Shown piece after piece: positions 2,449 through 30,766 of a stretch of 52,652 nucleotides of DNA (positions are counted from its first letter, which is position 1; every line of letters begins with the position of its first letter). The notes under the pieces are model-generated. The model was not told where the DNA came from and made no database searches. It saw only the letters and a program-made list of their open reading frames with translations. The position numbers and the translations under genes are program-made. Location of the stretch: positions 1 through 52,652 of the IMG/VR virus record IMGVR_UViG_3300036770_004392; one strand, given 5' to 3'. Source of the stretch: a virus.

Positions 2449-3125
2449 ATGTTAAACTTGTCTCCTACAGCCAACCCACTGAGGAATTTAGACACAACGG
2501 TATCGAGGATGCGCAGGACCTTATTGCTTTCTGCGCCCGCGTCAGCAACCCCAGCAATCAGTTCAATACAGAAACAAGCGAAAAACTTATACGATACTTG
2601 GTACGAAACAAACACTGGAGTCCCCTCGAAATGGTCAGTGCCTGTCTCGAAATCACAACCACAAGAGACATTGCCAGACAAATCTTACGACACAGAAGTT
2701 TTAGTTTCCAAGAGTTCTCCCAGCGATACGCTGACCCTACTAAAGATCTCTCGTTCGTTCTTAGAGAGGCCCGCTTGCAAGACACCACTAACAGACAAAA
2801 CAGTATTGAACTTGGAACAAGTATTGAGGAGTCCATACTTAGAGAAGAATGGATTCGGCAACAAGAAGAAGTCTTACGAGCAGCAAGAAGAGCCTACACT
2901 TGGGCTATCAATAAGGGCATAGCAAAAGAACAAGCTCGTGCTGTATTACCAGAAGGTTTGATGGAAAGTCGTTTATATATGAACGGTACTATCCGTAGTT
3001 GGGTGCATTTTATTGAACTACGTAGTGCTAATGGTACACAATTAGAACATCAACAAGTGGCACGAGCTTGTGCTGAGGTTATTTCTAAAGTTTTTAGTTT
3101 GGCTTCAGAATTTACGACCAATTAA
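2445..3125 (+). CDS. thyX: Flavin-dependent thymidylate synthase ThyX
   Basis: ThyX methylates dUMP to dTMP using methylenetetrahydrofolate, FAD and NADPH, and supplies thymidylate for phage DNA synthesis. The signature RHRSFSFQEFSQRY sits near residues 82-95 and matches the family motif RHRxxSxxxxSxRY, where the arginines and serine contact FAD and dUMP. A second conserved block, ARAVLPEG...MNGTIRSWVHFIELR, lies near residues 163-195. The length of 226 aa is normal. The start overlaps the previous gene by four bases. Many marine T4-like phages carry ThyX where T4 itself carries ThyA. The 3' end overlaps the convergent methyltransferase-like gene by about 20 bases, with no terminator between them. 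Confidence 0.95.
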   Translation: MNVKLVSYSQPTEEFRHNGIEDAQDLIAFCARVSNPSNQFNTETSEKLIRYLVRNKHWSPLEMVSACLEITTTRDIARQILRHRSFSFQEFSQRYADPTKDLSFVLREARLQDTTNRQNSIELGTSIEESILREEWIRQQEEVLRAARRAYTWAINKGIAKEQARAVLPEGLMESRLYMNGTIRSWVHFIELRSANGTQLEHQQVARACAEVISKVFSLASEFTTN

Positions 3126-3650
3126 CATATAACGATTAAAAATTTTATCTGGATAAACAAACTCTTTTTGCCCTTCATAATAGTTTAACATAGGATATTT
3201 TATTTTCAGCTGATTAAGGTTAAAAACATAGTCATGAAAATCATTATCATCATGTATTTGATCAGTTCCTTGTACTACAATAATTTGTGAGGTTAATTTT
3301 TCAAACCATTGCTTTTCTATTATATGTTCGCTCGATGTATTGATAACAATATCAAATTCTGCCAAATCAACTTTGTTAGCATCTTGAGTGAAAGCTTTAA
3401 ATTTCCATTTATCAAATACCCATGTATTATTGATCTTATCGGCAATAGGTTCTACAGATGGGTCAATATCATATGATCTAATATAATCAATCGATGCTCT
3501 TTTTCTTGCGTATAACAATAAAGCAACCAATCCGTACCAACCACCTAAGATTGCTATCTTAGACCTTATAGGAATAAACTTTTCTAGTTCTTCACAGAGC
3601 CAGATTTTACTTTCTATTTGACCGTGACTAAATGCACTTAAATCCAGCAT
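3105..3650 (-). CDS. Class I SAM-dependent methyltransferase-like protein
   Basis: A GxG-like motif I (KIAILGGWYGLVALLLY) lies in the first third, followed by an acidic strand (IRSYDIDPSVEPIA) and a DIVINTSSEH motif, the usual order of SAM-binding loops in class I methyltransferases. I place the start at the ATG at 3650, giving MLDLSAFSHGQ, because AAGGAG lies about ten bases upstream; the longer frame from 3683 would overlap the neighbour by 56 bases. At 181 aa it is a minimal fold. Similar short methyltransferase-like proteins accompany sugar or glycan genes in marine phages. The acceptor is unknown. It follows the GT-A-like gene on the same strand and ends inside the tail of thyX. Confidence 0.65.
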   Translation of the reverse strand: MLDLSAFSHGQIESKIWLCEELEKFIPIRSKIAILGGWYGLVALLLYARKRASIDYIRSYDIDPSVEPIADKINNTWVFDKWKFKAFTQDANKVDLAEFDIVINTSSEHIIEKQWFEKLTSQIIVVQGTDQIHDDNDFHDYVFNLNQLKIKYPMLNYYEGQKEFVYPDKIFNRYMLIGRKF

Positions 3651-4320
3651 GTATAAATTGCTCCTTAAGCCAGTCAAAATCATTTATTTTTGATATTTTT
3701 TTAATATCTTGATAATATGCACGAGCATACTCGTTACCAGATCTAGCACCAGAGATACATTCTTTGCCAAAAGGCATATCTTGACCTTTATGCATCCAAT
3801 CATATAATCTAATAGAACTATCATTTTTATCAATATCTAATTCAACGTTGATTGTTAATTTAGCTGCTTCTCTAAAAGCACTACGCCAAGTGGAGAGTTG
3901 ATCAGTATTAAACACTGTCACATTACTAACTTCATTTATAACTTTAATTTTTTTACTTATATTCATTGTCATATCTAAACTAGATTCGTCTAATTGTTGA
4001 GTCAATCTTTTTGGCAGCAATTTTACTGCACCATATCCATATTTTAAACCATTTATAGGATTAATACTTTTAAAAATATGTACAATATCTTGATCATAAT
4101 CATGCACTTTATAAGAAAAATTAAAACTATCTAATATATATGAATCACCATCAACTACCCAAAACATTTTTGTAAGTGCTCGGTTGGCAGCAAGTTTATG
4201 AGCCGCATGGATTCCTTTGATTCCATCTATCCTGTAAGCAGTTACAAATCTAGATTTTAATCGTCGCCAATGATTTTCGGCAGGAATTTCATTATTTGAA
4301 ATAAAAATTATATCATACAT
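3628..4320 (-). CDS. GT-A-like glycosyltransferase (paralogue of the gene at 19229)
   Basis: The N-terminus (YDIIFISNNE) is a Rossmann-type first strand. An Ala-rich helix (HAAHKLAANRAL) and WVVDGD follow, the strand-DxD arrangement that binds metal and nucleotide sugar in GT-A enzymes. INGLKYGYGAVK and WRSAFREAAKLT are shared with the 303-aa protein encoded at 19229-20140 (INGLMYGNGG, WRAGFREGVKMS), so the two are paralogues. The frame could extend to a TTG at 4341, but the ATG at 4320 gives MYDIIFIS, matching the paralogue core. No clear ribosome binding site is seen. It forms a two-gene minus-strand unit with the methyltransferase-like gene. The sugar and acceptor are unknown. Confidence 0.6.
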   Translation of the reverse strand: MYDIIFISNNEIPAENHWRRLKSRFVTAYRIDGIKGIHAAHKLAANRALTKMFWVVDGDSYILDSFNFSYKVHDYDQDIVHIFKSINPINGLKYGYGAVKLLPKRLTQQLDESSLDMTMNISKKIKVINEVSNVTVFNTDQLSTWRSAFREAAKLTINVELDIDKNDSSIRLYDWMHKGQDMPFGKECISGARSGNEYARAYYQDIKKISKINDFDWLKEQFIHAGFKCI

Positions 4321-4325
4321 AGGTA

Positions 4326-4333
4326 TATAAATA
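4326..4333 (+). promoter_or_regulatory. T4-type late promoter motif TATAAATA
   Basis: An exact copy of the T4 late -10 element lies 31 bases upstream of the plus-strand radical SAM gene at 4365, in the only gap where plus- and minus-strand genes diverge. It also sits just upstream of the 4320 start on the other strand, but in the orientation that serves the plus-strand genes. The local AT-richness makes a chance match possible. Confidence 0.4.
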
Positions 4334-4364
4334 TATATCAACTTAATTTAGAATAAACAAAATT

Positions 4365-5414
4365 ATGGATATTACCCCTGGCAAACCAATCAGAACATAT
4401 AATGAATTAGGACAATGGAGAGATTGGAGTACAGATGAATTAGTAGGTGCTAAACTAAATTATCTCCTTAGATGGAAATGTGGAGCAGGATTAGACAGTT
4501 TATACATTGATATGGATGGAGGAGTATGGACAGCTAGTTGTAGGGTAGGTGGAAAATTAGGTAACGTATGGGACGACTTTACTACTCCTAATGATTGGAT
4601 CACTTGTACTCGTAATGTATGTAGCTGTGGTGCAGACTTGTTTATTCCTAAAACAAAATCTGAAGAATATAAACCTTTACTTTTCAAAAGTAAAAATTAT
4701 CCTACAGAAACAGGAAAACGAGACAATGAACTAACTGATTTTGTAGCTATGGAAAGAACCCATGCTAGTGATCAAAAACAAGTGTATTGGGAAATTGGTA
4801 GAAGATGTAATTATGACTGTAGCTATTGTTGGCCTTGGATACACAATAATACTGACCCGCACAAACCATTAGAAGACCTTATGCGGGCTACTCATTTGAT
4901 TGAAAGTAAATTTACCAAAGGTGAAAGTGTTAATTTTATTATCAGTGGCGGAGAGCCAACTGCTAATAAAGATTTTTTAGATTGGCTACGGTATCTTAAT
5001 ACGTGTGGTCATCACATTAGCCTACACAGCAATGGTAGTAGAAAACCAGATTACTACAGAGAAATAATACACTACGGTGATTTAAATCTAAGCGTTCATT
5101 ATGAATTTTATGATCGTGCTAGATTTGTTAAAGTTGTAGAAGCCGTTGCAGATGAAAAAGCAAAGCATAATAATCAAAATGTAGGCCACCTGGAAATTAA
5201 GTTTATGATGGCTCCGCATAATAGAGAAGAAACTTTAAACTTAGAAGAAGAATTAAAAAGCTTACCGAATTTTAAAGAACTATGTACATGGGCTATTGTA
5301 CCTATACGTGGTAGCTTGAATAATAAAAATAGTGCTCCGAACAATAACTCAGGCAGCGAAATTATGGATGGTTATAGTAAGGAAGATTACATCTTGTTCG
5401 GGGATAGAACATGA
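4365..5414 (+). CDS. Radical SAM protein with N-terminal Cys-rich (SPASM-like) module
   Basis: The radical SAM cluster is CNYDCSYC, with C148, C152 and C155 as expected iron ligands for a 4Fe-4S cluster that cleaves S-adenosylmethionine. ISGGEPTANKDF near residue 193 is the GGE motif that contacts the SAM amino group. Before this barrel, residues 35-95 hold a separate Cys module (C39, C59, C81, C86, C88; IDMDGGVWTASCRVGG and CTRNVCSCG). The same module occurs at the C-terminus of the protein encoded at 16804-17763, so domain order is swapped between the two. It is the first gene of a plus-strand trio and overlaps the next by four bases. The substrate is unknown. Confidence 0.85.
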   Translation: MDITPGKPIRTYNELGQWRDWSTDELVGAKLNYLLRWKCGAGLDSLYIDMDGGVWTASCRVGGKLGNVWDDFTTPNDWITCTRNVCSCGADLFIPKTKSEEYKPLLFKSKNYPTETGKRDNELTDFVAMERTHASDQKQVYWEIGRRCNYDCSYCWPWIHNNTDPHKPLEDLMRATHLIESKFTKGESVNFIISGGEPTANKDFLDWLRYLNTCGHHISLHSNGSRKPDYYREIIHYGDLNLSVHYEFYDRARFVKVVEAVADEKAKHNNQNVGHLEIKFMMAPHNREETLNLEEELKSLPNFKELCTWAIVPIRGSLNNKNSAPNNNSGSEIMDGYSKEDYILFGDRT

Positions 5415-6634
5415 TCGATCAAGTATTATGTACAGCACCGTTAGTATCTGTATTAATCGATACTAACAAAGGAATTAGACCTTGTTGTTATTTTCAAGGC
5501 AAGTTTATGGGTAACATAAAAGAACAGCCTATAGTTGAAATTCTTGATAGTGAACGTTGGAAGCAATTAAAACAAAAAATGTACGATAAGGAGTGGCCGA
5601 GTGAATGTTTAGATTGTAAAAAAATTGAAGAGGACACAGGATTTAGTCTCCGAAAAATGTATACTAACAATATGGATATGACAGGTTGGCAGAACAACAA
5701 GTTAATATATATGGAGTTTAACGGTAGTAATATTTGTAATTTAGCCTGTCTACATTGTCATCCTGGGTTTAGTAGTAGATGGCTTTCTGATAATAAGAAA
5801 GCAATAGCAATAGCAGAAACTCTTACTCCTGAAAAAAAAGAACGTGCCTTAATGTTTCGGTCAATAAGGCAACAAACTGACGACTCTATAATTACAACAA
5901 CTAGAAGTCATCCACCAAATCCAGAATTAGTATTAGAAAATTTAAAGCAAATTGACCTAACAAATATACGGACAATAAATTTTAAAGGAGGGGAGCCATG
6001 TTTAAATTCTGAAACTGTAGCGGTGTTAAAGCATATCGATCAACAAGGACTACTAGGTAATATTACGGTCTATATTACTACTAACGGAACATATATAACT
6101 GACGAAATACTTTCTTTATTGTCTAAATCTAAACATGTAGAATTTCTAATTTCAGTTGACGGTATAGGAGAGTTATTTAATTATATAAGATATGGTGATG
6201 CTAAATTTGATAATATAGAACCAGTAATTGCCAAAGTAAACGCTCTTAACAATAGTGTTAATATTCGCATGAGTTGCTCGTTTATGAACTATAACGCATT
6301 TAATTTAATAGAAGTCAGAGATTGGAAAATTAATTTGTCTAAGAAATATGATAAAATTATAACACAAGGAGGATTTAACAATAGTGTACAGAGTCCTTCA
6401 TACTTATCTATAAACACCTTATCTGATCCTACAAGAAAACAGTTAATCGATTTTTATACTGCTAACAATAACAGTGGAGAGTTTAATGTTGTCATCAATA
6501 CATTAAGAAATAATTACTTAGGTGATGATATACATCGAAAATGGGTAGAATATACTGAACTTATGGAAAGTATAAGAGGAAACAATATATTAGAGTTAGT
6601 TCCTCAATTATCAATTGAGATGAAAAAGAAATGA
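5411..6634 (+). CDS. Twitch-domain radical SAM protein, 407 aa
   Basis: It has the layout typical of twitch-domain radical SAM proteins. An N-terminal Cys module (CTAPLVSVLIDTNKGIRPCC, then CLDCKKIEEDTGFSLR at about 57-75) is followed by the radical SAM barrel with CNLACLHC (C109, C113, C116) and KGGEP near 193. The module probably binds an auxiliary iron-sulfur cluster, as SPASM/twitch domains do in peptide- and carbohydrate-modifying enzymes. Translation starts in an ATGA overlap behind a GGGGA ribosome binding site. It ends in an ATGA overlap with the B12-type radical SAM gene, so the three enzymes are made together. The reaction cannot be read from the sequence. Confidence 0.85.
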   Translation: MIDQVLCTAPLVSVLIDTNKGIRPCCYFQGKFMGNIKEQPIVEILDSERWKQLKQKMYDKEWPSECLDCKKIEEDTGFSLRKMYTNNMDMTGWQNNKLIYMEFNGSNICNLACLHCHPGFSSRWLSDNKKAIAIAETLTPEKKERALMFRSIRQQTDDSIITTTRSHPPNPELVLENLKQIDLTNIRTINFKGGEPCLNSETVAVLKHIDQQGLLGNITVYITTNGTYITDEILSLLSKSKHVEFLISVDGIGELFNYIRYGDAKFDNIEPVIAKVNALNNSVNIRMSCSFMNYNAFNLIEVRDWKINLSKKYDKIITQGGFNNSVQSPSYLSINTLSDPTRKQLIDFYTANNNSGEFNVVINTLRNNYLGDDIHRKWVEYTELMESIRGNNILELVPQLSIEMKKK

Positions 6635-9210
6635 TAGATAAAGACAGTTGGATTGCAGAAAACGTATTCCCTAAGAACGATTTTTCGGAAACCCGAGTAA
6701 AAAGACTTGGAGTTACTTCAGTAAATGTCTTCAAGGCTACACGAAAAACTAAGTTTACATTATGTGTTTTAGGCAGTTGGGCCATTTATATGCCGCCTTA
6801 CAATCTAGCAAGGCTCTCAGGATTGACACGAGAAGCAGGGTATCCTACTCGTGTTTTCGACTTTAATGTACAATCACATTATGCTTTAAAAACTGCCAAT
6901 CCAGATCTTGCCGATGCGTGGAATGGAGCAAACTATTGGTGGTGGCAAGAAGGTGAATATGATAAACGAATACATCCAACATACGAACCAATACTATATC
7001 AGTACCTTGAACTTTTATTAGAAGACACTCCTGATATCATAGGTTTAAGTTGCTATTATACAAATATTTTACCTACAAAATGGATAATTAATAAGATCAA
7101 AGAAAGAAATCCTAACATAACAATTATTTTAGGAGGTCCCGAGTGTCATGAAAAATATTTTAGAAAACCTCAAGGTGCAGATTATTATTTTGTAGGCGAA
7201 AGTGAACAAAATATTATTGATTTTTTAAACAACTGGGAACAAGGAATTAAACCTGAAAATGAAGCTATAGGTAGTCTATACAGCGACACTAGAATAGATA
7301 TTGATAGTTTACCGTATCCTGACTACAGCGACTTTGACTTAACCAAATATTGGGGTAAAAATTCTATATGTGCAGAAATCAGTAGAGGGTGCATTGCTAA
7401 ATGTAGTTATTGTACAGAAGTTTACTATTGGAAATTTAGAGATCGAGGAGCTACTACCGTAGTTGACGAATTAGAATATCAAGTTTTGAAATATAATATA
7501 GGATTTGTTTCATTTGTTGATAGCCTTATGAACGGAAATTTAAAAGAATTCCGTAAATTTTGTGAAGAACTTGTTGAAAGAAATCTAGGTATATCTTGGT
7601 GGGGGTATGCTAGATGCGACGGAAGGATGGATTTAGAATTTTATAAACTTATAAGAGAGGCAGGAGGACAAGGATTTAATTATGGAATAGAAACAGGTAG
7701 CGATAAGGTTTTGCTAGCGATTAACAAAAAAAATACTGTTGCTGAGATAAATCAAAATATTATAGATTCGCATAAAGTTGGAATGAAAGTGTCTGCCTGT
7801 TGGGTCATTGGAGCACCCGGAGAAGATATAGAAGCATTTAACCATAGTTTTAATATGTTATGGAATCATCGACGTAGAATAATGGCAGTTAGTCCAGGAC
7901 CTGGGCTAGGAGATAATCCCGGATCATTATATGATGATAGAGAAAGATATAATTTAAATCCAAGGAACAAAAATTGGCTTGGCGGTTGGTATACTCTAGA
8001 TTTAAAAAATACAAAACTCCACAGACTTATAAGAATAAAACTTATGCATATATGGTTATCAATATGTCAGAAGTTTGAAGGAGTCGTATCAAACGTACAT
8101 AGTGTAGGAGATATAAACGACCATTTTAATCTTAAATTTACAGATACAGACTTTCAAGAAGAAGTACCATATGAGAATTTTAGCTACAATATAGTTAAGT
8201 CCGAGTTAGGAGATTTTGCTGATACTGTAATGAATGAAGCATTCGGTTTATTCAGATTACTGTGGAGAGTAAAAGGAGGATTTGAAATGACAATTAAATT
8301 TAATCCTCAACTAGATAGACAAGATTTTTCTTTTTGCATACCAGAAAATAGTACCCTATATGCAGAACATTTTTTCCAAATAAACAAAGAAGGAGAATTT
8401 AGTACTAAGGTTAATTATAAATTTTCTAATAATATAAGAACTATAATAGACACTCCTGGTTTCGAATTTATTTCTGATATTTCAGGTAAATGGTCCGACG
8501 AATCGAAAAAAATTAAACAATATAAAACATTTAACCTAGCAACAGAGAATCAAGAAAATACTTGGTCACCAAAAACACAATTATTAAAAGAAAGTTGTTT
8601 ATCAGGAATATCTATTAGAGAAAGACGTATGCTAATGCAAACTGTAAAACGTTTACCTAAGAATAGTGTGATTTTGGAAACAAATTCTGATCTCGGAGGA
8701 CGAGCTACTATTATGTCCAACGCAAATCAAGACATTATTATTAATAGTATAGAAACTTTTACAGGTAATTTAAAAGAGCAATTTGACGGAATGAAACCTT
8801 GGTTAGAGTCTCAAATGATAGACTTAACCTCAGATCCAGATGGTACAAAAACTTTTTTATCACAAATAGAAAATAGTTTTAAAGAAGATATTACAGGTAA
8901 AAAAGCATGGGAAATAATCACATCTCCATACAAAAATATTAAATTATTTTCGGATTATAGTTTAGAAGATTTAGAGTTAATTTGGAATACTCCAATTGAT
9001 TTATGCATAATCGATATACATCAAAATCCTAGATTACATGATAACTTAAAATTATGGACATATCATATAAAAACAGAAGGGTTATTATTGGCTCACTTGT
9101 ACGATACAGAACTAGGTCCGGACGTGGTTACTGAGATAGACAAATTACTTTCTCAAGGTTGGAAACTGATAAGAAAATTAGACAGGTTCATTTTAATTCA
9201 AAAATTGTGA
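6631..9210 (+). CDS. B12-binding-type radical SAM protein with C-terminal methyltransferase-like domain
   Basis: Residues about 45-225 resemble a cobalamin-binding Rossmann domain (PDIIGLSCYYTNILPT, TIILGGPECHE, YFVGESE), without the DxHxxG histidine of base-off enzymes. Residues about 245-480 are a radical SAM barrel of the B12 class, with CIAKCSYC (C254, C258, C261), FVDSLMNGN, GIETGSDKVL and the VIGAPGED loop. A long middle region follows. Residues about 650-859 look like a degenerate class I methyltransferase-type Rossmann domain (RLPKNSVILETNSDLGG, PIDLCIIDIHQNPRLHDNL, HIKTEGLLLAH). Known relatives perform methylations or ring and carbon rearrangements in natural-product and cofactor pathways. 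The extra C-terminal domain is unusual. Its end overlaps the convergent SGNH gene by 18 bases. Confidence 0.8.
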   Translation: MIDKDSWIAENVFPKNDFSETRVKRLGVTSVNVFKATRKTKFTLCVLGSWAIYMPPYNLARLSGLTREAGYPTRVFDFNVQSHYALKTANPDLADAWNGANYWWWQEGEYDKRIHPTYEPILYQYLELLLEDTPDIIGLSCYYTNILPTKWIINKIKERNPNITIILGGPECHEKYFRKPQGADYYFVGESEQNIIDFLNNWEQGIKPENEAIGSLYSDTRIDIDSLPYPDYSDFDLTKYWGKNSICAEISRGCIAKCSYCTEVYYWKFRDRGATTVVDELEYQVLKYNIGFVSFVDSLMNGNLKEFRKFCEELVERNLGISWWGYARCDGRMDLEFYKLIREAGGQGFNYGIETGSDKVLLAINKKNTVAEINQNIIDSHKVGMKVSACWVIGAPGEDIEAFNHSFNMLWNHRRRIMAVSPGPGLGDNPGSLYDDRERYNLNPRNKNWLGGWYTLDLKNTKLHRLIRIKLMHIWLSICQKFEGVVSNVHSVGDINDHFNLKFTDTDFQEEVPYENFSYNIVKSELGDFADTVMNEAFGLFRLLWRVKGGFEMTIKFNPQLDRQDFSFCIPENSTLYAEHFFQINKEGEFSTKVNYKFSNNIRTIIDTPGFEFISDISGKWSDESKKIKQYKTFNLATENQENTWSPKTQLLKESCLSGISIRERRMLMQTVKRLPKNSVILETNSDLGGRATIMSNANQDIIINSIETFTGNLKEQFDGMKPWLESQMIDLTSDPDGTKTFLSQIENSFKEDITGKKAWEIITSPYKNIKLFSDYSLEDLELIWNTPIDLCIIDIHQNPRLHDNLKLWTYHIKTEGLLLAHLYDTELGPDVVTEIDKLLSQGWKLIRKLDRFILIQKL

Positions 9211-10029
9211 TTTTATAAATTGGCTAAGTTTTTCTGCTACTAAATTAACAGACCGCAAATTAGGATGTTGATTTTTTTTAGATATTGTTAAATTATCAAA
9301 ATCAGTATTAAGAAATGCTACCCAAGATTTACCAAACATATGATTATCTGATTCGTCCCCAAATGGCATCCAATTTTTATTTGAAGATATATTATCCAAA
9401 GATATTAACGGTTTATTCTTAACTCCTATCAAACTTTTCTTTATTTCATCGTATGTTATCCACCCACAATTGCTATCTATACCTCTATAAAATGTATAAC
9501 TTATATCTCGATATTTCAAGTAATTCTCTAATAATAGAATATCAATTATGTACTGTAAAGCATGATCATAAACTGAATTATTAATCAATATTTCTCCAAT
9601 ATAATCTTCATAATCTTTATACCCTGCCATTCCATTTAGGTGGTGTACAGTTAAGTTTTGGAAAATGTTATATTCTTTTAAATATTTCAAACGTCGAGTC
9701 CAACCAGTCCAACCTACACATACATGATATTGTTGTTGTTCTGCTAGGGATAAATTCATTAAAAAATTTAATACAGACAAAGCTATTCCTGTATTACTAT
9801 TGCCATCACGAGAAAGATCTACACTTTCTGTATCTAACAACGAAGAAGTTTTACTAGATAAGTTAAACTTTTTTCTATAATCTGTATAATCAGGATAGTT
9901 TCTTTTCTTTTCTTTACTATCCCATTCTATAGGATTAAGTTTTAGAACATCTTTTACGAAATCATCCCACACAAGTGCATCACCTGCTGTAAAACTACAT
10001 CCTGCGAAAAGTAGTTTTTTATTAAACAT
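9193..10029 (-). CDS. SGNH/GDSL-like hydrolase, copy A of a tandem pair
   Basis: The N-terminus reads KKLLFAGCSFTAGDALVW, the block I strand-GxSxT pattern of SGNH esterases, with the serine in the GCSF turn. DLSRDGNSNTGIALS is a likely block II, with Gly/Asn residues of the oxyanion hole. HPNLRSVNLVAEKL near the C-terminus could supply the catalytic histidine. SGNH enzymes typically add or remove acetyl or acyl groups on sugars. It has a good AAGGAAT ribosome binding site and is separated by 13 bases from copy B, with which it shares a 578-base identical core. It overlaps the end of the B12-type radical SAM gene by 18 bases. The exact substrate is unknown. Confidence 0.75.
   Translation of the reverse strand: MFNKKLLFAGCSFTAGDALVWDDFVKDVLKLNPIEWDSKEKKRNYPDYTDYRKKFNLSSKTSSLLDTESVDLSRDGNSNTGIALSVLNFLMNLSLAEQQQYHVCVGWTGWTRRLKYLKEYNIFQNLTVHHLNGMAGYKDYEDYIGEILINNSVYDHALQYIIDILLLENYLKYRDISYTFYRGIDSNCGWITYDEIKKSLIGVKNKPLISLDNISSNKNWMPFGDESDNHMFGKSWVAFLNTDFDNLTISKKNQHPNLRSVNLVAEKLSQFIKSQFLN
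9322..9899 (-). repeat. Identical core of tandem gene duplication, unit A
   Basis: By direct reading, this 578-base stretch matches 10163-10740 without a visible difference, synonymous positions included. A second block of 68 identical bases covers the two gene starts (9962-10029 and 10800-10867). Between and beyond the identical blocks the copies differ by substitutions and small indels. Confidence 0.9.
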
Positions 10030-10042
10030 AATGAGATTCCTT

Positions 10043-10867: not shown

Positions 10868-10868
10868 T

Positions 10869-13191: not shown

Positions 13192-13215
13192 AATACAGAT
13201 CTTTCCATAGGTTAA

Positions 13216-13896: not shown

Positions 13897-13927
13897 TTTT
13901 ATAGTTTCTCTATATAAAATATTTTTA

Positions 13928-14608: not shown

Positions 14609-14625
14609 ACTAAATTCTTATTTCA

Positions 14626-16056: not shown

Positions 16057-16811
16057 TAAATAATCCTGCACTTACGCAAAAAAGACATATATAAAGGAAG
16101 ATATTTAATAAATCCATTATAAATATCTAGAAGTTCATTAAAATTAGTTACAGCGTCTTTATACTCAACTGCCCATGTTTTTTGTATAAATTTATTATCA
16201 CGAATAGGAATTTTATTTTTAAGACAATCTTCTAATAGATGTTCATATCTTACAGTAAGGTGTTTATAATTTTTAAATAAATGCTTTCTATATTCGGTAG
16301 ATTGATAATGATTAAATAAGTATTCTATCCACTCATCGATCTGAACTGTAATTTTTCCTAAAGCATCAGCAGGTACAGGGTTTTTGTGGTTTTCGTATCG
16401 GTGAGCAATTTTTGTAGTGTTAGCAATAACATGGCTTAAAGCCCTATCAAACATATTTCTTTCTAAAAATAAAAAACGAAAGCCACAATCCTCTAATGTT
16501 TGAATAAAATTATCATAAGACATTCTGCTTTCGTTGCAAAATAAGATAGCTACAAGACTCTGATCTGGATTTATCTTCTTTATTTGAGCTGCCCTTTTAT
16601 CCATAAACTGTTGCCTATCTAATTTTTCAGTAGGCATTTCTGTAGACACTTTAACGAAATTATCATTATCATATGTATAATCCCAAAATACATTTGTATA
16701 CATATCATAATTTGTTATTTCATCTAGTAGAACGCACTGTTTTGGCAACATTGATTGTAACCAATGACTTCCACATCTAGGTTCTCCTACTATACACCAT
16801 CTTTCAACCAT
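16056..16811 (-). CDS. Sulfotransferase-like protein
   Basis: The N-terminus VGEPRCGSHWLQSML (residues 8-22) matches the 5'-phosphosulfate loop of PAPS-dependent sulfotransferases (PRSGSTWL type). LERNMFDRALSHVIA with R118, D122 and S126 matches the 3'-phosphate-binding motif. Such enzymes move sulfate from PAPS to hydroxyl or amino groups of sugars, lipids or proteins. The 251-aa length is normal for small bacterial members. The start lies in an eight-base overlap with the upstream radical SAM gene. The acceptor is unknown, but the glycosyltransferases and esterase-like genes around it make a glycan plausible. Confidence 0.78.
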   Translation of the reverse strand: MVERWCIVGEPRCGSHWLQSMLPKQCVLLDEITNYDMYTNVFWDYTYDNDNFVKVSTEMPTEKLDRQQFMDKRAAQIKKINPDQSLVAILFCNESRMSYDNFIQTLEDCGFRFLFLERNMFDRALSHVIANTTKIAHRYENHKNPVPADALGKITVQIDEWIEYLFNHYQSTEYRKHLFKNYKHLTVRYEHLLEDCLKNKIPIRDNKFIQKTWAVEYKDAVTNFNELLDIYNGFIKYLPLYMSFLRKCRII

Positions 16812-17763
16812 TGTTTAATAATTCCTTTGTACTCATAATATCAAAATTACAATGGCACATCTTCTTAGTGCAGATTACTGGATCAAGTGGTAAATTTATT
16901 TCGGAGTTATCTATTCTTCCTATGACACCACCCTCTTTACACCACCCCCTGTAGATACTTCCATCCATATCAACTATCAACTGCTCTACTCCAGCAAAAC
17001 ATTGCCACCCACTCCAATCATTAGTTTTTTCACTAATAAATCTATGAGCACTTGACACCTTGGTAATACCTTCTGAATCTACCATACGCATTGCACCTCG
17101 ATAATATTCAAAAGTTTTAGTAAACTTTATATGTTTACTAATTAATTCATGTTGTTTATCAAATATTTTCTTTTGGAAATCATTATATTCGTACAATTGC
17201 TCTCCAAAATCTATAATCAATGGCTGTAAAGCCATTGATAAATTTCCTAAATTTTTTACCTTGTTTGCAACGGAATAGCAATAATCGAACTTATCTGGAC
17301 TCATCATAATATTGACATGTGTACGCACTTCATTATTAAGTATCTTTACCACTTCAATAAAATGTTTTTCATCGGCGTGTTCAGGATGAAAACTTAAACA
17401 CACATGATCAAAAAATTGTTTATTTTCTTCCCACCATCGAGTAGTTCTGGACCCATTACTTATAAGTCCTACCTTAATGTCCATGTCAGTACAAAACTTA
17501 CAGATATCAATAAAATGTTTAAACATTGTTACTTCGCCGCCTGTAAATTCAAAGTATATATTTTTATGCAAATAATGATTTTTTACTTTAGTTATAAACC
17601 TTTTAATCAATTGTAAATCAGGCCAAGACTTACTACCATCATGCAGATTAGAAGGGCAATAGCTGCATTTATAATTGCAAGTATTACCTAAGCACCAGTT
17701 GATTACAAACCAATCCCTATGTTCTTCTTTTGAATGTTCCAACCTTATATATTTGTGTTCCAT
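16804..17763 (-). CDS. Radical SAM protein with C-terminal Cys-rich (SPASM-like) module
   Basis: WCLGNTCNYKCSYCPSN carries the radical SAM cysteines C29, C33 and C36, so the barrel starts almost at the N-terminus. FEFTGGEVTMFKHF and GLISNGSRTTRWW follow. The C-terminal part (GWQCFAGVEQLIVDMDGS, WCKEGGVIG, CTKKMCHC) is a Cys module closely similar to the N-terminal one of the protein at 4365. I prefer the ATG at 17763 to a TTG at 17778. It is followed by the sulfotransferase-like gene in an overlap. This is the only radical SAM protein here with the common barrel-then-SPASM order. The substrate is unknown. Confidence 0.85.
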   Translation of the reverse strand: MEHKYIRLEHSKEEHRDWFVINWCLGNTCNYKCSYCPSNLHDGSKSWPDLQLIKRFITKVKNHYLHKNIYFEFTGGEVTMFKHFIDICKFCTDMDIKVGLISNGSRTTRWWEENKQFFDHVCLSFHPEHADEKHFIEVVKILNNEVRTHVNIMMSPDKFDYCYSVANKVKNLGNLSMALQPLIIDFGEQLYEYNDFQKKIFDKQHELISKHIKFTKTFEYYRGAMRMVDSEGITKVSSAHRFISEKTNDWSGWQCFAGVEQLIVDMDGSIYRGWCKEGGVIGRIDNSEINLPLDPVICTKKMCHCNFDIMSTKELLNNG

Positions 17764-17787
17764 TAAATTAATTTCCAAAAATTATAG

Positions 17788-19188
17788 TTATTGTAGATGT
17801 TTAGTCATATCAAAAAAATCTGCATATTCCGGAAATGTCTCTACAAAATTTAATTTTCTACGCTCGTCAAATTTACTAAACCATGTATAAAATTTTTTCC
17901 TATCTTCCAATCTATCTTGATTATTATTACGCAAGCTATTAGCTAAATTTTGTAAAAATATAATATATTGGTCCCATCTACCCCAAAAATCACTAACTTC
18001 AGGCATTATACCTGTTCGTTGCTGCATATACTCGATTGCTTCATCAATATATCTAGCAAAATCAGTTGTCAATACAAAAGGACTCTGATGACTAGGATAA
18101 TTCACTACAGCTTGTTTAAGAGATATTGGTCTATTATATTTTTTGTACAAATTTTCAGTGAATTTAATAAAATCTACAGTCGTAGCAATACTTAACGCAT
18201 TAATACTGGAAATAAAACCAAACTCAAAATTAAATTTACTGCCTAGTATTTTATCAAGATTACTGACAAATCTTTCCCAATCTAAACCATTTCTTATATA
18301 TTCTGCCCTATTACCAACTGCTTCCATACTACCTAAAATTTCAACATCAAAATGTTCTGTTAATTTAGGCAAATATTCTAAAAACTTATTCATATAATTT
18401 GGAGGAGTATTTAAATTAGTAACTATCCAAAAAGTCATTCGTTTTTTTCTCAAATGCTTTACAGGTTCGATCGCCAATATAGACTTTTCAACAAATCTAT
18501 AAAATTCAGGCATAATTAAAGGCTCTCCACCAATAGCACCTATTCTTCCTAAATGCAGTTTTACAGTATCAAACCATTTCCAATAATATTCTTCAAATTT
18601 ATCATTCGCTTTTGGAAACTCTCTATCATATTGTTCTTGTGTAATTTCACCATGCTTTATTCTTTCTGTGGCCCATTGTGTACTGTATACATGATTGCAA
18701 TACATACATTTCATATCACAAGTATTACCTAAACTTACTTCAAGCATATAGGGCATATGAGATTTAAGTGCAGGATGATGAATGGATTGTATCTTAGACA
18801 TCTCTACTCTTAATAATTCTTCTGAATAATTCTGATTATAAGGAATAGTTTTAGATCTAAGCAGCTGGTGCCAAAATTTATCAGGATCGTGTCTAGGACT
18901 ACTCATACCTGCATCTTCTAACCCCCAACAACTTCTACAATCTTCATGTCTCTTACCTTGAACCAGAGCCAATCTAGATTGCAACATATCATAATTATTA
19001 AGGAAAGCATCAGTTCCTAATTTTTCTAAAGTAGCTTCCGATACTGGCTTACTAGGAGTACGACAACAACTACGGAATTCGCCACGTTCCATATGAAAGA
19101 TAGGATAGTTCCATTTAAGATCACAGATGGTATTAAATGGGTCAGAGTAATTATCAGAATCTACTATAGGAATAGTTTTTCGTCTCAT
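17788..19188 (-). CDS. Twitch-domain radical SAM protein, 466 aa
   Basis: The N-terminal Cys module (CDLKWNYPIFHMERGEFRSCC, then CRSCWGLEDAGMSSPR at about residues 85-100) precedes CNLK-type motif CDMKCMYC with C157, C161 and C164. IGAIGGEPLIMPEFY and FWIVTNLNTPP are later barrel motifs. It is the longest of the twitch set on this strand after the 476-aa one and is the most diverged in the SAM cluster motif. A clear AAGGAA precedes the ATG. It is the first radical SAM gene downstream of the GT-A-like gene at 19229, after a 40-base gap with an inverted repeat. The reaction is unknown. Confidence 0.85.
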   Translation of the reverse strand: MRRKTIPIVDSDNYSDPFNTICDLKWNYPIFHMERGEFRSCCRTPSKPVSEATLEKLGTDAFLNNYDMLQSRLALVQGKRHEDCRSCWGLEDAGMSSPRHDPDKFWHQLLRSKTIPYNQNYSEELLRVEMSKIQSIHHPALKSHMPYMLEVSLGNTCDMKCMYCNHVYSTQWATERIKHGEITQEQYDREFPKANDKFEEYYWKWFDTVKLHLGRIGAIGGEPLIMPEFYRFVEKSILAIEPVKHLRKKRMTFWIVTNLNTPPNYMNKFLEYLPKLTEHFDVEILGSMEAVGNRAEYIRNGLDWERFVSNLDKILGSKFNFEFGFISSINALSIATTVDFIKFTENLYKKYNRPISLKQAVVNYPSHQSPFVLTTDFARYIDEAIEYMQQRTGIMPEVSDFWGRWDQYIIFLQNLANSLRNNNQDRLEDRKKFYTWFSKFDERRKLNFVETFPEYADFFDMTKHLQ

Positions 19189-19201
19189 TTTTTTTCCTTA
19201 G

Positions 19202-19219
19202 TTCTAATTTTAATTAGAA
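19202..19219. repeat. 18-base perfect inverted repeat in intergenic gap
   Basis: TTCTAAT and ATTAGAA flank a four-base loop. It sits between the GT-A-like gene and the radical SAM gene at 19188, just upstream of the ribosome binding site of the latter. On the transcribed (minus) strand it has no following U-run, so it is more likely an RNA processing or operator-like site than a terminator. All-AT composition makes chance occurrence possible. Confidence 0.35.
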
Positions 19220-19228
19220 TAATATTTT

Positions 19229-20140
19229 TCAATCATTTTCTATTAAGTCTACTCTATTATGCGACTTGTAAACACGTTTGAAAAACTTTGATTGATAACT
19301 ATTAAAAGTTACTATGTCTAATTCTAAATTATTTCTTAACTCTTTTTCTAACCATTCTAAACGATAATCTAAATCAGTTGCAGATCCGTATTCCTTTGTA
19401 TTCCAATACTCAGTAAGATAATCAAAATCTCTTACATTACGATAATCCCAATCTGTTAGATTAGTCATATAACATCCTTCCCTGGCACCCATCATAGCCC
19501 ATAAACCATTTTCCATATCAGCACCAACATTACACCAAATTAATAATCTATGTAGATTCTTCCAATGCACACCTTCTTTTACAGTGACTTTAGTAAGTTT
19601 AGCCCCACGATTAAGGCTCATCTTTACACCTTCTCTAAATCCAGCACGCCAGGCTTGAAATGGTGTAGCATTATTATATACATCACTGTAACAATCGTTC
19701 ATTTGGATATATTTATTATCCCAACAAAAATCAACTTGACCGACTCTATCATCAGGATCTGAGTTTTCATGTGTCTTCATATTCATTACAAAGTCTACAG
19801 TCCAGCATTTTAGTCCACCATTTCCGTACATTAAACCGTTTATGATATTATGTCCGCTCCAACTTATTACACTATTTTCTAATGTAGGATATTTTTCCAT
19901 ATCAATTTCTATATTAAGAAAATCCGTACGAATAATATTATCACCGTCTACTGTGGTAAAACGTGGTGTCTCACTTAACTGAGCACAGGCTTTATGAGCA
20001 CTATCACTACCTTTAACTCCATGAACACGTTTAGCCCAAGGTACTTTGGTCAATAAATCAGCATAATTTTTCTCAGCATTTGGCTCATCATAACTAAGAT
20101 AAATGATATCATACTCAATAGGTCTGAAAGTTTTTGTCAT
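19229..20140 (-). CDS. GT-A-like glycosyltransferase (paralogue of the gene at 3628)
   Basis: EYDIIYLSYDEPNAEKNY is a first Rossmann strand and loop. HKACAQLSETPRFTTVDGDNII carries the DGD candidate metal/nucleotide-sugar site, and INGLMYGNGGLKCW and QAWRAGFREGVKMS are shared with the 231-aa protein at 3628. At 303 aa it has about 70 extra C-terminal residues with a Lys/Arg-rich tail. The start is in an ATGA overlap with the upstream unknown gene. Its position between fibre-side glycosyltransferases and the radical SAM genes suggests it works in the same pathway. The GT assignment rests on fold-like motifs and is moderately sure. Confidence 0.6.
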   Translation of the reverse strand: MTKTFRPIEYDIIYLSYDEPNAEKNYADLLTKVPWAKRVHGVKGSDSAHKACAQLSETPRFTTVDGDNIIRTDFLNIEIDMEKYPTLENSVISWSGHNIINGLMYGNGGLKCWTVDFVMNMKTHENSDPDDRVGQVDFCWDNKYIQMNDCYSDVYNNATPFQAWRAGFREGVKMSLNRGAKLTKVTVKEGVHWKNLHRLLIWCNVGADMENGLWAMMGAREGCYMTNLTDWDYRNVRDFDYLTEYWNTKEYGSATDLDYRLEWLEKELRNNLELDIVTFNSYQSKFFKRVYKSHNRVDLIEND

Positions 20141-20799
20141 GCTTTTGTCTTTATATATTGATATTTGGTAAATAGTTTTCTTGTAAAAATGCTTATCTTT
20201 GTTTCATTATAGTCTATCTCGTCAAAAGGTAAAATACAATAATAGTTTTCTATTAATTCTTTAATTGGAACTGTTAAAGTTTTTATTAAAATATTTGGGT
20301 CATTATAAAGAGTAATATAAAAGTTAAACTCTTTATCAAAGTATAAATTTCTTGCCCTAAAACTATCAGCAAGACTTCCATTTATATATATTTTCCAACA
20401 AGTATCTATATAGTCCTGTATTAAAGTAATATCATTGAAAGGATCATAGATAGTAGGATAGCTAGTACTTGTCCTAAAAGGAATTTGAAATATTACATCT
20501 TGTATGCTCTGCAATACCTCATCTTCTTCGTCTTTTTTAATAAAAACAAAATCCTTTTCGTCAGGACTAAAAACAATCTTATAATTGTCAATATTATCAT
20601 TACCTTCTAATATTGCCTGTACTTGATGAAATTGAACAACTACCGATGGCAAATTATAATCTTGCACACTACTAATAGACTTAATTTCACCAGTATCTTG
20701 AATAAAATGTACAAATCTTTCTGTGTTTACATTAGAATTATATCTACGATTAAATTCTTCCAACTGATCTTCTGTAATATCCCATTCTACTTGTAACAT
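20137..20799 (-). CDS. Hypothetical protein, 220 aa
   Basis: Well placed behind AGGAAT in a block of co-directed genes, with two bases separating it from the glycosyltransferase upstream and a four-base overlap downstream. The protein is acidic, with a first helix-like segment (EDQLEEFNRRYN) and many short strands rich in Ile, Tyr and Phe. No enzyme motif or membrane segment is apparent. The beta-rich appearance and location between two glycosyltransferase genes would fit a virion accessory or binding protein. I do not recognise a family. Confidence 0.65.
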   Translation of the reverse strand: MLQVEWDITEDQLEEFNRRYNSNVNTERFVHFIQDTGEIKSISSVQDYNLPSVVVQFHQVQAILEGNDNIDNYKIVFSPDEKDFVFIKKDEEDEVLQSIQDVIFQIPFRTSTSYPTIYDPFNDITLIQDYIDTCWKIYINGSLADSFRARNLYFDKEFNFYITLYNDPNILIKTLTVPIKELIENYYCILPFDEIDYNETKISIFTRKLFTKYQYIKTKA

Positions 20800-20801
20800 T
20801 A

Positions 20802-21644
20802 TTAAATTCCTAAATCTTGTTCTAAATGATTAATTATTGTGTCATTTAAAAAACTGTATTCAGTATAATGAAATAAACCAAACTGTTGATAATTTCCTAT
20901 TTTTAATTGACATTTATCGTTAAAATACCCACCAATACTATCTTGCCATGATTCGGTAGGATTTTCCCAACCTTGTAACATTGACTTCATATGTGTAAAC
21001 GTAACGACCGAATCTCTATGTGAAACAATTTCTTCGCAGTCAAGTATTTTAGTAACTAGACTGACTGTAACGTCCATACTAGGTACTTTAGGATAATTTA
21101 AATTAACATATTTTCCGTAAAATAATTCCCAGTTATTATTAATATATTCTACCCAGCTGAAAAAATTCTTGCTAAAGTCAGTTTTTTTAAAATACATAAG
21201 ACCAGAATATAAATCTGGTAATTGATTTGAATCAAAGGCTTTACGATAAAATCTTCCAGTAGCAATACGATTTCTATAGTCCCTTACTGAACTTGTAAAA
21301 AATATTTCGTACTTATCAAGATAAGTCCACCAATGACTTAGATCGGATAATACTAACATATCTGCATCTAAAACTATTGTTTCATCATAAGGACTACAAT
21401 GATAAAGCTTCCATCTATCTTCTGTTTTATAAGTAGTGGTATTTGTATTATTATAATCTCTCCATGGTATTGGAATTATATTATCAAAAACTACTCCATA
21501 TTTTGAAGGTAAATCATTATCAGTAACAATACTAACGTTAGTATCAGGTATATGCTTTTTTAAACTAAGTGCTAGAGCATAGGCACATTTAGTATACTTT
21601 TTAATACCCGAATCTTGAGCAAAGATTAAAAATCCTTTACTCAT
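20802..21644 (-). CDS. GT-A glycosyltransferase-like protein, 280 aa
   Basis: SKGFLIFAQDSGI...YAKCAYAL-type N-terminus is followed by VSIVTDNDLP and ETIVLDADMLVLSDL, with the DAD triad expected to bind the metal and nucleotide sugar in GT8-like enzymes. PDLYSGLMYFKK is a typical later active-site strand. The ATG at 21644 has AGAGGAG about nine bases upstream and is preferred over a GTG two codons earlier. It is a shorter paralogue of the upstream 434-aa protein, sharing MSKGxLIxA, SPxDETxVxDxD and xxxYFxK blocks. Sugar donor and acceptor are unknown. Neighbouring fibre genes make virion glycosylation a possible role. Confidence 0.75.
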   Translation of the reverse strand: MSKGFLIFAQDSGIKKYTKCAYALALSLKKHIPDTNVSIVTDNDLPSKYGVVFDNIIPIPWRDYNNTNTTTYKTEDRWKLYHCSPYDETIVLDADMLVLSDLSHWWTYLDKYEIFFTSSVRDYRNRIATGRFYRKAFDSNQLPDLYSGLMYFKKTDFSKNFFSWVEYINNNWELFYGKYVNLNYPKVPSMDVTVSLVTKILDCEEIVSHRDSVVTFTHMKSMLQGWENPTESWQDSIGGYFNDKCQLKIGNYQQFGLFHYTEYSFLNDTIINHLEQDLGI

Positions 21645-22941
21645 TCGCACACTCCTCTATAACCCTTGAAAGACTGAATTTGTTCATAACATGAACATTG
21701 ATGCCTTTAGTTTTTATCAAAGTATATTCTCCCTTATACTTTTCCTTTTCTAGAAGTAATGTAAGTTGCTCTTTATTATGTTTTAAAAGTATGTCCTTAT
21801 CAATAGAATAATACAAAGTACCTGGTAGCTCATGTGCCCAAGATCCAGTTTGATAACCATTCATTATATGGATAGCAATACTAAAAGCAAAATCATTCCT
21901 ATATAAACTGTGATCTATTTGATAAACATATCTATAATAATTCCAGTTATCTTGTATGTGAGATAATAAATTAAAGAAAGTCTCTGTATTTTTATTTTTT
22001 CTAAAATAAAAAACAGTAGCCCAATAAAAATCAATTGATTTGTCACTTAATGTAACTAATCTAGGATCATACCTGAATCCCGAAAGATCGACACTATTTT
22101 TATAAATTAAAAAATCATGAGATTGTTCCCAACAATATTTTAATACATCATTGTTAATTAAATAATCACAATCTATAACCAAGGTTTCATCAAAAGGACT
22201 TAATTCAAAGCTTTTCACACGTATATCATTCTTAAATCTAAGGCGTCTAAAACTCATTGCACCATCAAAATATCTTCTATACTGAGGAGAAGATGAATAA
22301 ACTATCTGAACTTCATTGGTATTTTTCCAAATTTCATTATTAATTTTAACATTTATTTTATCAATATTAGAATTACATAGCCATAGGGTTCTTTCATAAA
22401 GTAATAAATCACCTTTTAAAAAATTTTCAGTACAAGATAATTCTTTAACATTATCTAATATTAAATCATATTTGTCTAAAGAAAATTCCCCATCTTCACT
22501 ATATTCTTCTCTGCATCGATATAATTTGTTTTCGTACCATACATGCTGCCCTGTTAGATAAGGCAAATTTGGATACCATTTGTCAACATCTATTCCAACA
22601 TATTCTTTACTTAAATTTAATTCACTTACATCAAATGGCAAAATATCCTCACCTTCTGCTTCTTTTTTCCAAATAGAATGTTCATAATAAACTAGACTGC
22701 CTACAGGATATCGATAATTTAAATTAAAATTTCCTATATCAGACTGATGAACTACCTTGATCAAGATGTCAAGATAATCTTTATAATTAGGACATTGTTT
22801 GGATAACCAATCAAAACTATCAGTTACCAAAGCTATAGGAATATTCAAATGTTTCTTGACCTGCTTTGCAGCATAAAGAGCTATCTTAGTATAATCAACT
22901 TGCTCGTTATTTAGAGCATATATTAATAAACCTTTACTCAT
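21637..22941 (-). CDS. GT-A glycosyltransferase-like protein with inserted carbohydrate-binding-like repeats
   Basis: The ends match the 280-aa neighbour: MSKGLLIYALNNEQ with IPIALVTDSF, then SPFDETLVIDCDYLI (DCD triad) and FYWATVFYFRKNK. Between them, residues about 80-205 form an insert with three short repeats (YPVGSLVYYEHSIWK, YLTGQHVWYENKLYRC, FLKGDLLLYERTLWLC) that resemble chitin-binding CBM5/12-like modules. Such modules bind polysaccharide through aromatic residues. The start at 22941 overlaps the upstream stop by eight bases; a TTG two codons upstream is less likely. The insert suggests an acceptor that is a chain or polymer. The binding role is inferred from pattern only. Confidence 0.72.
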   Translation of the reverse strand: MSKGLLIYALNNEQVDYTKIALYAAKQVKKHLNIPIALVTDSFDWLSKQCPNYKDYLDILIKVVHQSDIGNFNLNYRYPVGSLVYYEHSIWKKEAEGEDILPFDVSELNLSKEYVGIDVDKWYPNLPYLTGQHVWYENKLYRCREEYSEDGEFSLDKYDLILDNVKELSCTENFLKGDLLLYERTLWLCNSNIDKINVKINNEIWKNTNEVQIVYSSSPQYRRYFDGAMSFRRLRFKNDIRVKSFELSPFDETLVIDCDYLINNDVLKYCWEQSHDFLIYKNSVDLSGFRYDPRLVTLSDKSIDFYWATVFYFRKNKNTETFFNLLSHIQDNWNYYRYVYQIDHSLYRNDFAFSIAIHIMNGYQTGSWAHELPGTLYYSIDKDILLKHNKEQLTLLLEKEKYKGEYTLIKTKGINVHVMNKFSLSRVIEECANE

Positions 22942-23287
22942 TATCAATCAAAGCCTCGACCGATCTATTCTTTTTAAGCGATTGATAATTATTATAATAA
23001 CTATTACTAGCAATAAAATATTGGTTAATTATATCTTCTAAGAATTTATTAAGATCATTGATACGGATAGGTAATTCATTATCATCGATAACTACTACAT
23101 CAGTTGTATGATTCAAATCAACCAAGGTTTTTATAAAAGTAATTAGATCCTTAGTAATAGTAAACGTGCCTCCATTTTGATAAAAGACACAATCATTGCG
23201 ATATTTTTCTTTAAGAGATCTTTTCTGATTATTTAGAGTTACCATAAAATTGGCAAACTCGAGAGCTTTTTCTAAGCGTTCATCCAT
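22934..23287 (-). CDS. Hypothetical protein, 117 aa
   Basis: A mostly helical, charged protein (LEKALEFANFMVTLNNQKRSLKEKY at the start) with a middle strand (DVVVIDDNELPIRI) and a Tyr/Asn-rich tail. GGAG lies eight bases from the ATG, inside a predicted hairpin. It opens the glycosyltransferase gene block right after the tail-fibre genes. Similar short helical proteins occur next to fibre genes in T4-like marine phages, and they may be chaperones, but I have no motif to support this here. Confidence 0.65.
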   Translation of the reverse strand: MDERLEKALEFANFMVTLNNQKRSLKEKYRNDCVFYQNGGTFTITKDLITFIKTLVDLNHTTDVVVIDDNELPIRINDLNKFLEDIINQYFIASNSYYNNYQSLKKNRSVEALIDNE

Positions 23288-24237: not shown

Positions 24238-24256
24238 TGTAGATTCCTTAGCTTAT

Positions 24257-25267: not shown

Positions 25268-25278
25268 TTACTTTTTCC

Positions 25279-26838: not shown

Positions 26839-26860
26839 TCTTTAAACCCCTTATTCTATA

Positions 26861-26868: not shown

Positions 26869-26869
26869 A

Positions 26870-30138: not shown

Positions 30139-30139
30139 A

Positions 30140-30748: not shown

Positions 30749-30766
30749 AGTTTTGTCTCTTTTCAA

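Follow-up and report, generated by a model that had tools for sequence, protein, structure and literature searches.

What are eight radical S-adenosylmethionine (SAM) genes doing next to the tail-fibre genes of a phage? The question is raised by IMG/VR virus record IMGVR_UViG_3300036770_004392, a 52,652-base fragment that we analysed whole (hereafter the window). An earlier note on this DNA had drawn attention to an island of about 20 kb, running from gene MT to gene u117 (Table 1), as a possible pathway for making and decorating a glycan, a lipid-linked sugar or a modified peptide. These limits proved too narrow, as the unit also takes in two fibre genes, f298 and f336, that lie outside them. 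We found that a cassette of fibre and glycosyltransferase (GT) genes, joined by a row of radical SAM genes, recurs in many uncultured aquatic phages. The explanation we favour, at slightly better than even chances, is that phage-encoded enzymes act in the cytosol to build a glycan on a tail-fibre protein, possibly f298, and to modify this glycan by radical chemistry before virion assembly.

The GT gene GTb anchors the cassette. A scan with GTb yielded more than 597 viral relatives; the counts below refer to the 80 best-scoring contigs, so that close relatives are over-represented. The order f336-f298-u117-GTd-GTc-(u220)-GTb recurred in these 80 contigs, and adjacent cassette genes always lay on one strand (289 of 289 pairs). 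The pairs u117-GTd, GTd-GTc, GTc-u220 and u220-GTb overlapped or abutted in all measured cases, with median overlaps of 4-8 bases between the enzyme genes; f298 and u117 were separated by a short gap (median 58 bases). Gene u117 was present in 71 contigs and overlapped or abutted GTd in all 71, a member of the f298 family was located directly upstream of u117 in 65, f336 was upstream of f298 in 61, and u220 was found between GTc and GTb in 38, overlapping both neighbours. GTb was directly followed by GTa in 42 contigs and by a radical SAM gene in 33. Since radical SAM genes were visible in only 36 of the 80 contigs, we consider the fibre-GT cassette to be the core and the radical SAM block an add-on, most readily understood as a variable segment inserted between GTb and the GTa-MT pair of an older cassette.

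The reverse scan started from an alignment of radical SAM proteins of the N_Twi type (with an N-terminal twitch domain) and covered 80 loci. Every locus had two or more N_Twi genes, most often five or six, and in 57 of the 80 GTb was visible as well although contigs were incomplete. Scans with rS3 and rS6 produced about a dozen independent contigs with a recurrent island order, subject to local swaps: rS1 - [rS2-like copies] - rS3 convergent with [SGNH] - rS4 - rS5 - [SGNH] - rS6 - rS8 - [ST] - rS7. The window differs by one such swap, with rS7 and ST placed between rS6 and rS8. In two contigs of sufficient length, G001 and G003, the island is followed by GTb, GTc, GTd, u117, f298, f336, u208, a giant fibre gene and gp6, as in the window. 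The neighbourhood comparison proposed in the earlier note thus shows that the genes are not scattered: order is strongly kept whether contigs are selected by GTb or by radical SAM genes. Conservation of gene order across many independent contigs argues that the island is more than a chance gathering.

Conservation is uneven within the island. Between islands the core radical SAM proteins mostly share 50-85% identity (rS1 orthologues 78-80%, rS7 orthologues 68-77%), against mostly 22-50% for SGNH-like, sulfotransferase and GT proteins. Ratios of non-synonymous to synonymous substitution rates (dN/dS) of the radical SAM genes, computed against contig L008, were 0.06-0.18 (rS1, 0.08; rS4, 0.064), indicating purifying selection. 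SGNH, ST and MT genes turn over rapidly between islands; still, SG2 homologues with 30-37% identity occupy the same slot in sister islands, and MT homologues adjoin GTa and radical SAM genes in many viral contigs. Sister islands also carry genes for nucleotide-sugar dehydratases, dehydrogenases, a DegT aminotransferase, a PIG-L deacetylase, an O-carbamoyltransferase and an FkbM methyltransferase.

The same cassette was detected in contigs binned as Pelagibacter, Rickettsiales and Betaproteobacteria (L043, L044 and L046), which are probably viral to judge from their gene content, the neighbouring genes being marine-myophage-like. The module is therefore present both in jumbo phages and in pelagimyophage-like contigs, which suggests that it moves between phage lineages.

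All eight radical SAM genes named in the earlier note stood up to profile searches. They span 4.4-19.2 kb, and each has an intact CxxxCxxC motif. Seven passed the PF04055 cut-off (29.5 bits); the eighth, rS8 (27.0 bits), has a high score for NF033640 (N_Twi_rSAM, 'twitch domain-containing radical SAM'; curated cut-off 170 bits). Five of the proteins match this NCBIfam model: rS2, rS5, rS6 and rS8 pass its cut-off and rS4 falls just under it. The N_Twi enzymes have a twitch domain that matches the one in BtrN, a dehydrogenase acting on an aminoglycoside; this likeness is consistent with sugar chemistry. The radical SAM cores match peptide enzymes. In rS3 a B12-binding domain (PF02310, 39.5 of 32.1 bits) precedes the radical SAM domain (PF04055, 44.4 of 29.5 bits), and stand-alone homologues of its third, C-terminal domain (residues ~650-858) match Methyltransf_24. 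Similar Cys-rich auxiliary domains (IDMDGGVW...C...CxC and IVDMDGSIY...C...CxC) flank the radical SAM domain of rS1 and that of rS7 on opposite sides, an arrangement that looks like a circular permutation. The rS8 orthologue at G004:42292-43617 contains two in-frame stops (TGA and TAG) and may be a pseudogene or a sequencing error. A search with rS7 alone detected no cellular homologues. We rejected a viperin-type antiviral role, as rS7 and others resemble viperin weakly, at scores far below the cut-off (59 of 180 bits).

The assignment of the GTs was likewise upheld. A profile of the GTc/GTd family (A11) matches glycogenin-2 (4ueg, a GT8 enzyme) with E 3.6e-6 over its first ~105 positions. 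Glycogenin is a protein GT that glucosylates protein; the match does not imply self-glucosylation of GTc or GTd. The AlphaFold2 model of GTb, predicted with high confidence, has a GT-A fold whose best Foldseek matches are SunS, TarS, WrtF, RmlT and ppGalNAc-T (E ~1e-4, template modelling (TM) score ~0.33); SunS is a peptide S-glycosyltransferase. D65-x-D67 is invariant in the GTb family, and GTa is related to GTb. We also observed gene fusions: GTb is joined to GTa in L052:2849-4435 and a GTa-like domain to rS7 in L013 (18492-20756), and L018 is a further contig with such a fusion. In G001, rS1 is immediately preceded by a 1884-aa protein with a GTa domain and by a NodU/TobZ-type O-carbamoyltransferase (L032:7882-13536; G001:133545-135026). 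The predicted structure of u117 is a helical hairpin, with weak fold matches to phage DUF4376 proteins and, among PDB folds, nothing beyond a weak similarity to prefoldin; such a fold would be compatible with a fibre chaperone. Sequence-profile searches of the PDB with GTb, f298, u117 and SG1/SG2 gave no meaningful match.

The four SGNH-like hydrolases and the sulfotransferase of the earlier note remain plausible at a lower level of support. In the SG1/SG2 family the motifs GCSxxAGD, DGxxN and HP are conserved, with S12, N79 and H255 invariant; in the SG3/SG4 family GxS and CH are conserved, with S9 and H181 invariant. The one GDSL score, that of SG4, reached 19.8 of 27 bits, SG1, SG2 and SG3 had no GDSL/SGNH Pfam match, and one of 24 SGNH homologues reached PF00657 (E 1.7e-4). 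SG1 and SG2 (9193-10867) are products of a recent tandem duplication (95% identity, synonymous divergence 0.064), differing mainly near both ends. ST falls just below the PF00685 cut-off; its motifs GEPRCGSHWL and RNMFDRALS resemble 3'-phosphoadenosine 5'-phosphosulfate-binding motifs.

Table 1. Genes of the island and its fibre genes in the window, and CHxS-tail proteins of two sister phages
Gene	Location	Strand	Description
MT	3105..3683	-	methyltransferase-like protein, 192 aa; no Pfam match of its own
GTa	3628..4341	-	GT-A-like GT, DGD motif; 27-34% identical to GTb, DxD in common
rS1	4365..5414	+	radical SAM with N-terminal Cys-rich (twitch/SPASM-like) domain; PF04055 54.9 bits
rS2	5411..6634	+	N-terminal-twitch radical SAM; NF033640 230.6 of 170 bits
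rS3	6631..9210	+	B12-binding radical SAM with C-terminal class I methyltransferase-like domain, 859 aa
SG1	9193..10029	-	SGNH-like hydrolase/esterase, recent duplicate of SG2; no Pfam match
SG2	10043..10867	-	SGNH-like hydrolase/esterase; conserved motifs as in SG1
rS4	10869..12020	-	N-terminal-twitch radical SAM; PF04055 and SPASM above cut-off; NF033640 153.5 bits, just under
rS5	12013..13191	-	N-terminal-twitch radical SAM; NF033640 308.7 bits
SG3	13216..13896	-	SGNH-like; 28% identical to SG4; no Pfam match of its own
SG4	13928..14608	-	SGNH-like; Lipase_GDSL_3 E 0.001, below cut-off
rS6	14626..16071	-	N-terminal-twitch radical SAM; NF033640 330.1 bits
ST	16056..16811	-	sulfotransferase-like; PF00685 21.8 of 22 bits
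rS7	16804..17778	-	radical SAM with C-terminal Cys-rich domain (domain order reverse of rS1); PF04055 37.4 bits
rS8	17788..19188	-	N-terminal-twitch radical SAM; NF033640 248.2 bits
GTb	19229..20140	-	GT-A GT, anchor of conserved cassette; AlphaFold2 pLDDT 89.8
u220	20137..20799	-	small conserved protein between GTc and GTb
GTc	20802..21650	-	GT8-like (glycogenin-related) GT
GTd	21637..22947	-	GT8-like GT, relative of GTc; belongs to GTc/GTd profile family
u117	22934..23287	-	small helical protein, possible fibre chaperone or adaptor; AlphaFold2 pLDDT 92
f298	23341..24237	-	fibre protein, candidate glycan acceptor
f336	24257..25267	-	fibre protein of the same operon; phrog_22593 and tail-fibre PHROGs
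CHxS-tail protein, Phosso	L119:20415-21335 (Phosso 190414-191334)		
CHxS-tail protein, Atu_ph07 gp170	L121:21119-22009		

Protein relationships identify the window as part (52.7 kb) of the genome of a jumbo myovirus of the RaK2/Atu_ph07 type. The baseplate wedge protein (43672-47169) has 30-35% identity to its counterparts in Sinorhizobium phage Phosso, Agrobacterium phage Atu_ph07, Salicola phage SCTP-2 and many RaK2-like jumbo phages, and u208 (30140-30766) is common to the same group. The island is located between gp6 and the giant fibre gene on one side and HNH and thyX on the other, with thyX (2445-3125) close to it. The giant fibre/adhesin-like protein, encoded between u208 and gp6, has 4298 aa in the window (30773-43669), 6652 aa in G001 (162326-182284) and 5127 aa in G003 (24086-39469).

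The earlier description of the island's layout held in outline. The minus-strand block does run in the same direction as the fibre genes. Overlaps between neighbours, said to be the rule and to measure 1-8 bases, occur at 8 of 16 measured junctions and measure 4-16 bases, the remaining junctions being gaps of 1-40 bases; about half of the junctions thus overlap, which suggests that the genes form one or two operons. The alternation of radical SAM and SGNH genes is a loose one: the actual order pairs SG1-SG2, rS4-rS5 and SG3-SG4, followed by rS6.

Gene order, coding overlap, conservation and enzyme classes are observed; a pathway linking them would run as follows. Late in infection f336 and f298 would be expressed together with u117, GTd, GTc, u220 and GTb. 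The position and fold of u117 suggest a small chaperone or adaptor acting on the fibre. A short sugar chain would be begun and lengthened on the fibre, with f298 as a possible acceptor, by the GT8-like enzymes GTd and GTc; GTb and GTa would extend it further. The N-terminal-twitch enzymes, rS1, rS7 and rS3 could then carry out C-H chemistry on the sugars, with dehydrogenation, epimerization, deoxygenation and C-methylation as candidate reactions. The methyltransferase, the sulfotransferase and the SGNH esterases may add or remove methyl, sulfate and acyl groups. The decorated fibre would enter the virion, where the glycan would influence recognition of the host or hide the fibre. Sited between GTb and GTa, the radical SAM and decoration genes would be a variable addition to the core cassette.

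Several links support this pathway. The glycan-making and decorating role claimed in the earlier note is backed by the GT8 and GT-A enzymes, and the nucleotide-sugar and sugar-modifying genes of sister islands point to a glycan as well; the chemistry itself is what we infer. The fixed link of the GT cassette to f298 argues for the fibre as the target. Further support comes from the gene order kept in both scans, the presence of the module in jumbo phages and pelagimyophage-like contigs, purifying selection on the radical SAM genes, the likeness of GTc/GTd to glycogenin, of GTb to SunS and of the twitch domain to BtrN, and the fusions of GTs with each other and with rS7. A hydropathy scan detected no membrane segment in any island protein (no 19-residue peak above 1.5), which argues against the usual lipid-linked O-antigen route.

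Other points weigh against the fibre-glycan pathway. The acceptor, the glycan, the reaction of each radical SAM enzyme and the effect on host recognition are proposed from gene content. The likeness of the GTb fold to known GTs is remote at the TM score given above, and the SGNH and sulfotransferase scores lie under curated cut-offs. Linkage of fibre and GT genes in one operon could arise if both serve host recognition and neither modifies the other. The hydropathy scan is compatible with peripheral membrane action on a host lipid-linked sugar. In a collection of isolate phages GTb, GTc and rS1 had no match; among other queries, rS6 had weak Vibrio-phage matches and rS3 one partial match.

The main rival is modification of the host surface, where the enzymes would make or alter an O-antigen, capsule or lipopolysaccharide-core sugar and so block superinfection or the binding of progeny to debris. 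We regard it as rather unlikely, though worth keeping in view. Such a role was proposed by the authors of a pelagimyophage study for GT8 genes in a similar region (PMC7029224), and the nucleotide-sugar genes of sister islands would fit it too. Genes for N-terminal-twitch radical SAM proteins are common in Bdellovibrionota and in some Bacteroidota metagenome-assembled genomes (L041-L118), sometimes beside GT2 and flagellin genes. The GT2 signal among these bacterial neighbours (6 of 86 scanned genes) favours host-surface action; both it and the flagellin signal are modest and come from a survey with no background control, so we do not use them as strong evidence. Against host-surface action, the GT cassette is fixed to one family of fibre genes, and the lack of membrane proteins means that the island encodes no flippase, polymerase, polyprenyl-phosphate transferase or Gtr-type protein. 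Gtr-type O-antigen conversion was rejected, as no membrane flippase or membrane glucosyltransferase is present among the island proteins. Between the coating of fibres and the change of host surface put forward in the earlier note, the data lean to the fibre, given the same fibre family directly upstream of the GT cassette and the absence of membrane segments; neither is proven.

A less probable alternative, to which we give a small chance, is that the radical SAM enzymes act on the fibre polypeptide itself through cross-links, epimerization or C-methylation, in the manner of ribosomally synthesized and post-translationally modified peptides (RiPPs), and that the GTs glycosylate the modified peptide. 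The peptide-enzyme matches of the radical SAM cores and the presence of a B12 radical SAM would suit such a role, as would the arrangement in Atu_ph07 and Phosso, where peptide-maturase-like radical SAM genes occupy the same position beside a protein ending in CHxSCHxSCHxSRxRR. However, the gene context is rich in sugar genes, none of the window's radical SAM proteins reached a RiPP-maturase cut-off, and neither the window nor any of the 80 loci of the N_Twi scan showed a Cys/His core, precursor peptide or CHxS tail. We therefore rejected a RiPP cluster in the window, with the proviso that a small unrecognized precursor could escape the search.

The CHxS-tail proteins are a side finding. The place that the island takes in the window, between the fibre/giant-protein genes and the rest, is filled in Atu_ph07 and Phosso by other radical SAM genes, which are of the peptide-maturase type and adjoin a gene for a protein with the C-terminus CHSSCHASCHNSRSRR or CHTSCHASCHSSRSRR. 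A DNA-pattern scan of viral contigs yielded at least 120 stretches, and 80 loci were examined (L203-L282). The pattern demanded CHxSCHxSCHxSRxR and did not require a stop codon after the motif; all 93 open reading frames with the motif ended exactly in CHxSCHxSCHxSR(G/S)RR. Companions at these loci were a family of ~238-aa proteins (63 loci) and a radical SAM family (59 loci). In Atu_ph07 a cluster of virion proteins found by mass spectrometry spans CDS 170-215 (PMC6102473), so that gp170, the CHxS-tail protein, is probably in the virion. The arrangement looks like that of a virion protein whose C-terminus is modified in a RiPP-like way. Among the papers listed by a literature text search for the tail, none prints SCHSSRGRR. 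The CHxS tail, absent from the window and from related islands, merits separate study.

Phage GTs often modify DNA, and thyX is near; still, hypermodification of phage DNA bases by the GTs and radical SAM enzymes is very improbable, as the position and orientation are those of the fibre operon, fibre genes accompany the cassette from contig to contig, and neither a base hydroxylase nor a nucleotide kinase was observed in the cassette. A chance gathering of unlinked auxiliary metabolic genes in a plastic region, to which the fast turnover of SGNH, ST and MT genes and the metabolic boosting proposed for Campylobacter phage radical SAM clusters (PMC2853527) might point, is just as improbable and is largely refuted, in the form of scattered auxiliary genes, by core order and orientation conserved over large distances and by low dN/dS.

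Parts of the system have precedents. GT8 enzymes and radical SAM cassettes also occur in the host recognition cluster of pelagimyophages, defined as lying between VrlC and gp14 (Zaragoza-Solas et al. 2020, PMC7029224). This cluster resembles the module in combining fibre genes, several GT8-type GTs and radical SAM cassettes in a structural region and is likely its T4-like counterpart (L043, L044 and L046); the window phage is a jumbo phage, unlike the T4-sized pelagimyophages. As far as the accessible text goes, that paper treats the region as nonsyntenic, and describes neither the fixed f298-u117-GTd-GTc-GTb order nor a tandem N-twitch radical SAM run, a B12 radical SAM, SGNH or sulfotransferase genes. 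The T4-like marine environmental genome TARA_ERS488813_N000010 has 12 radical SAM genes, discussed in that report in relation to Fe-S, with no link drawn to a fibre-GT cassette in the accessible text (Nishimura et al. 2017, PMC5332604). In Campylobacter phages CP220 and CPt10 each genome has 11-12 radical SAM genes, and an exchangeable cluster of 10-12 genes contains five of these; it is read as metabolic boosting, and the accessible text mentions a glycine amidinotransferase and no GTs or fibre link (PMC2853527). Neither the fixed cassette nor the tandem N_Twi run is described in the accessible parts of these three papers. BtrN, a SPASM/twitch dehydrogenase of butirosin synthesis, differs from the phage N_Twi enzymes in having its twitch domain at the C-terminus and not at the N-terminus. 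We know of no radical SAM assembly line in mycobacteriophage virion glycosylation. That process, in which phage GTs glycosylate virion proteins, is the closest tested precedent for the proposed outcome (Freeman et al. 2023, as cited in PMC12619734).

The fibre-GT and radical SAM set appears not to have been described by anyone as one system. A broader proposal, which we put forward tentatively and as possible rather than probable, is that this is an unnamed widespread phage system in which a fixed fibre-GT cassette feeds some five N-twitch radical SAM enzymes that remodel virion sugars by radical chemistry, perhaps yielding residues or cross-links new to any organism, with the same slot in sister phages holding a second radical SAM system whose direct target is the C-terminus of a virion protein.

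Radical SAM genes of phages have been reported for more than 10 years without a function; here they fall into a module with a conserved gene order that is linked to the attachment fibres. Should the fibre prove to be glycosylated, radical chemistry would be at work on the virion sugars of abundant aquatic phages, which would matter both for host recognition and for enzyme discovery.

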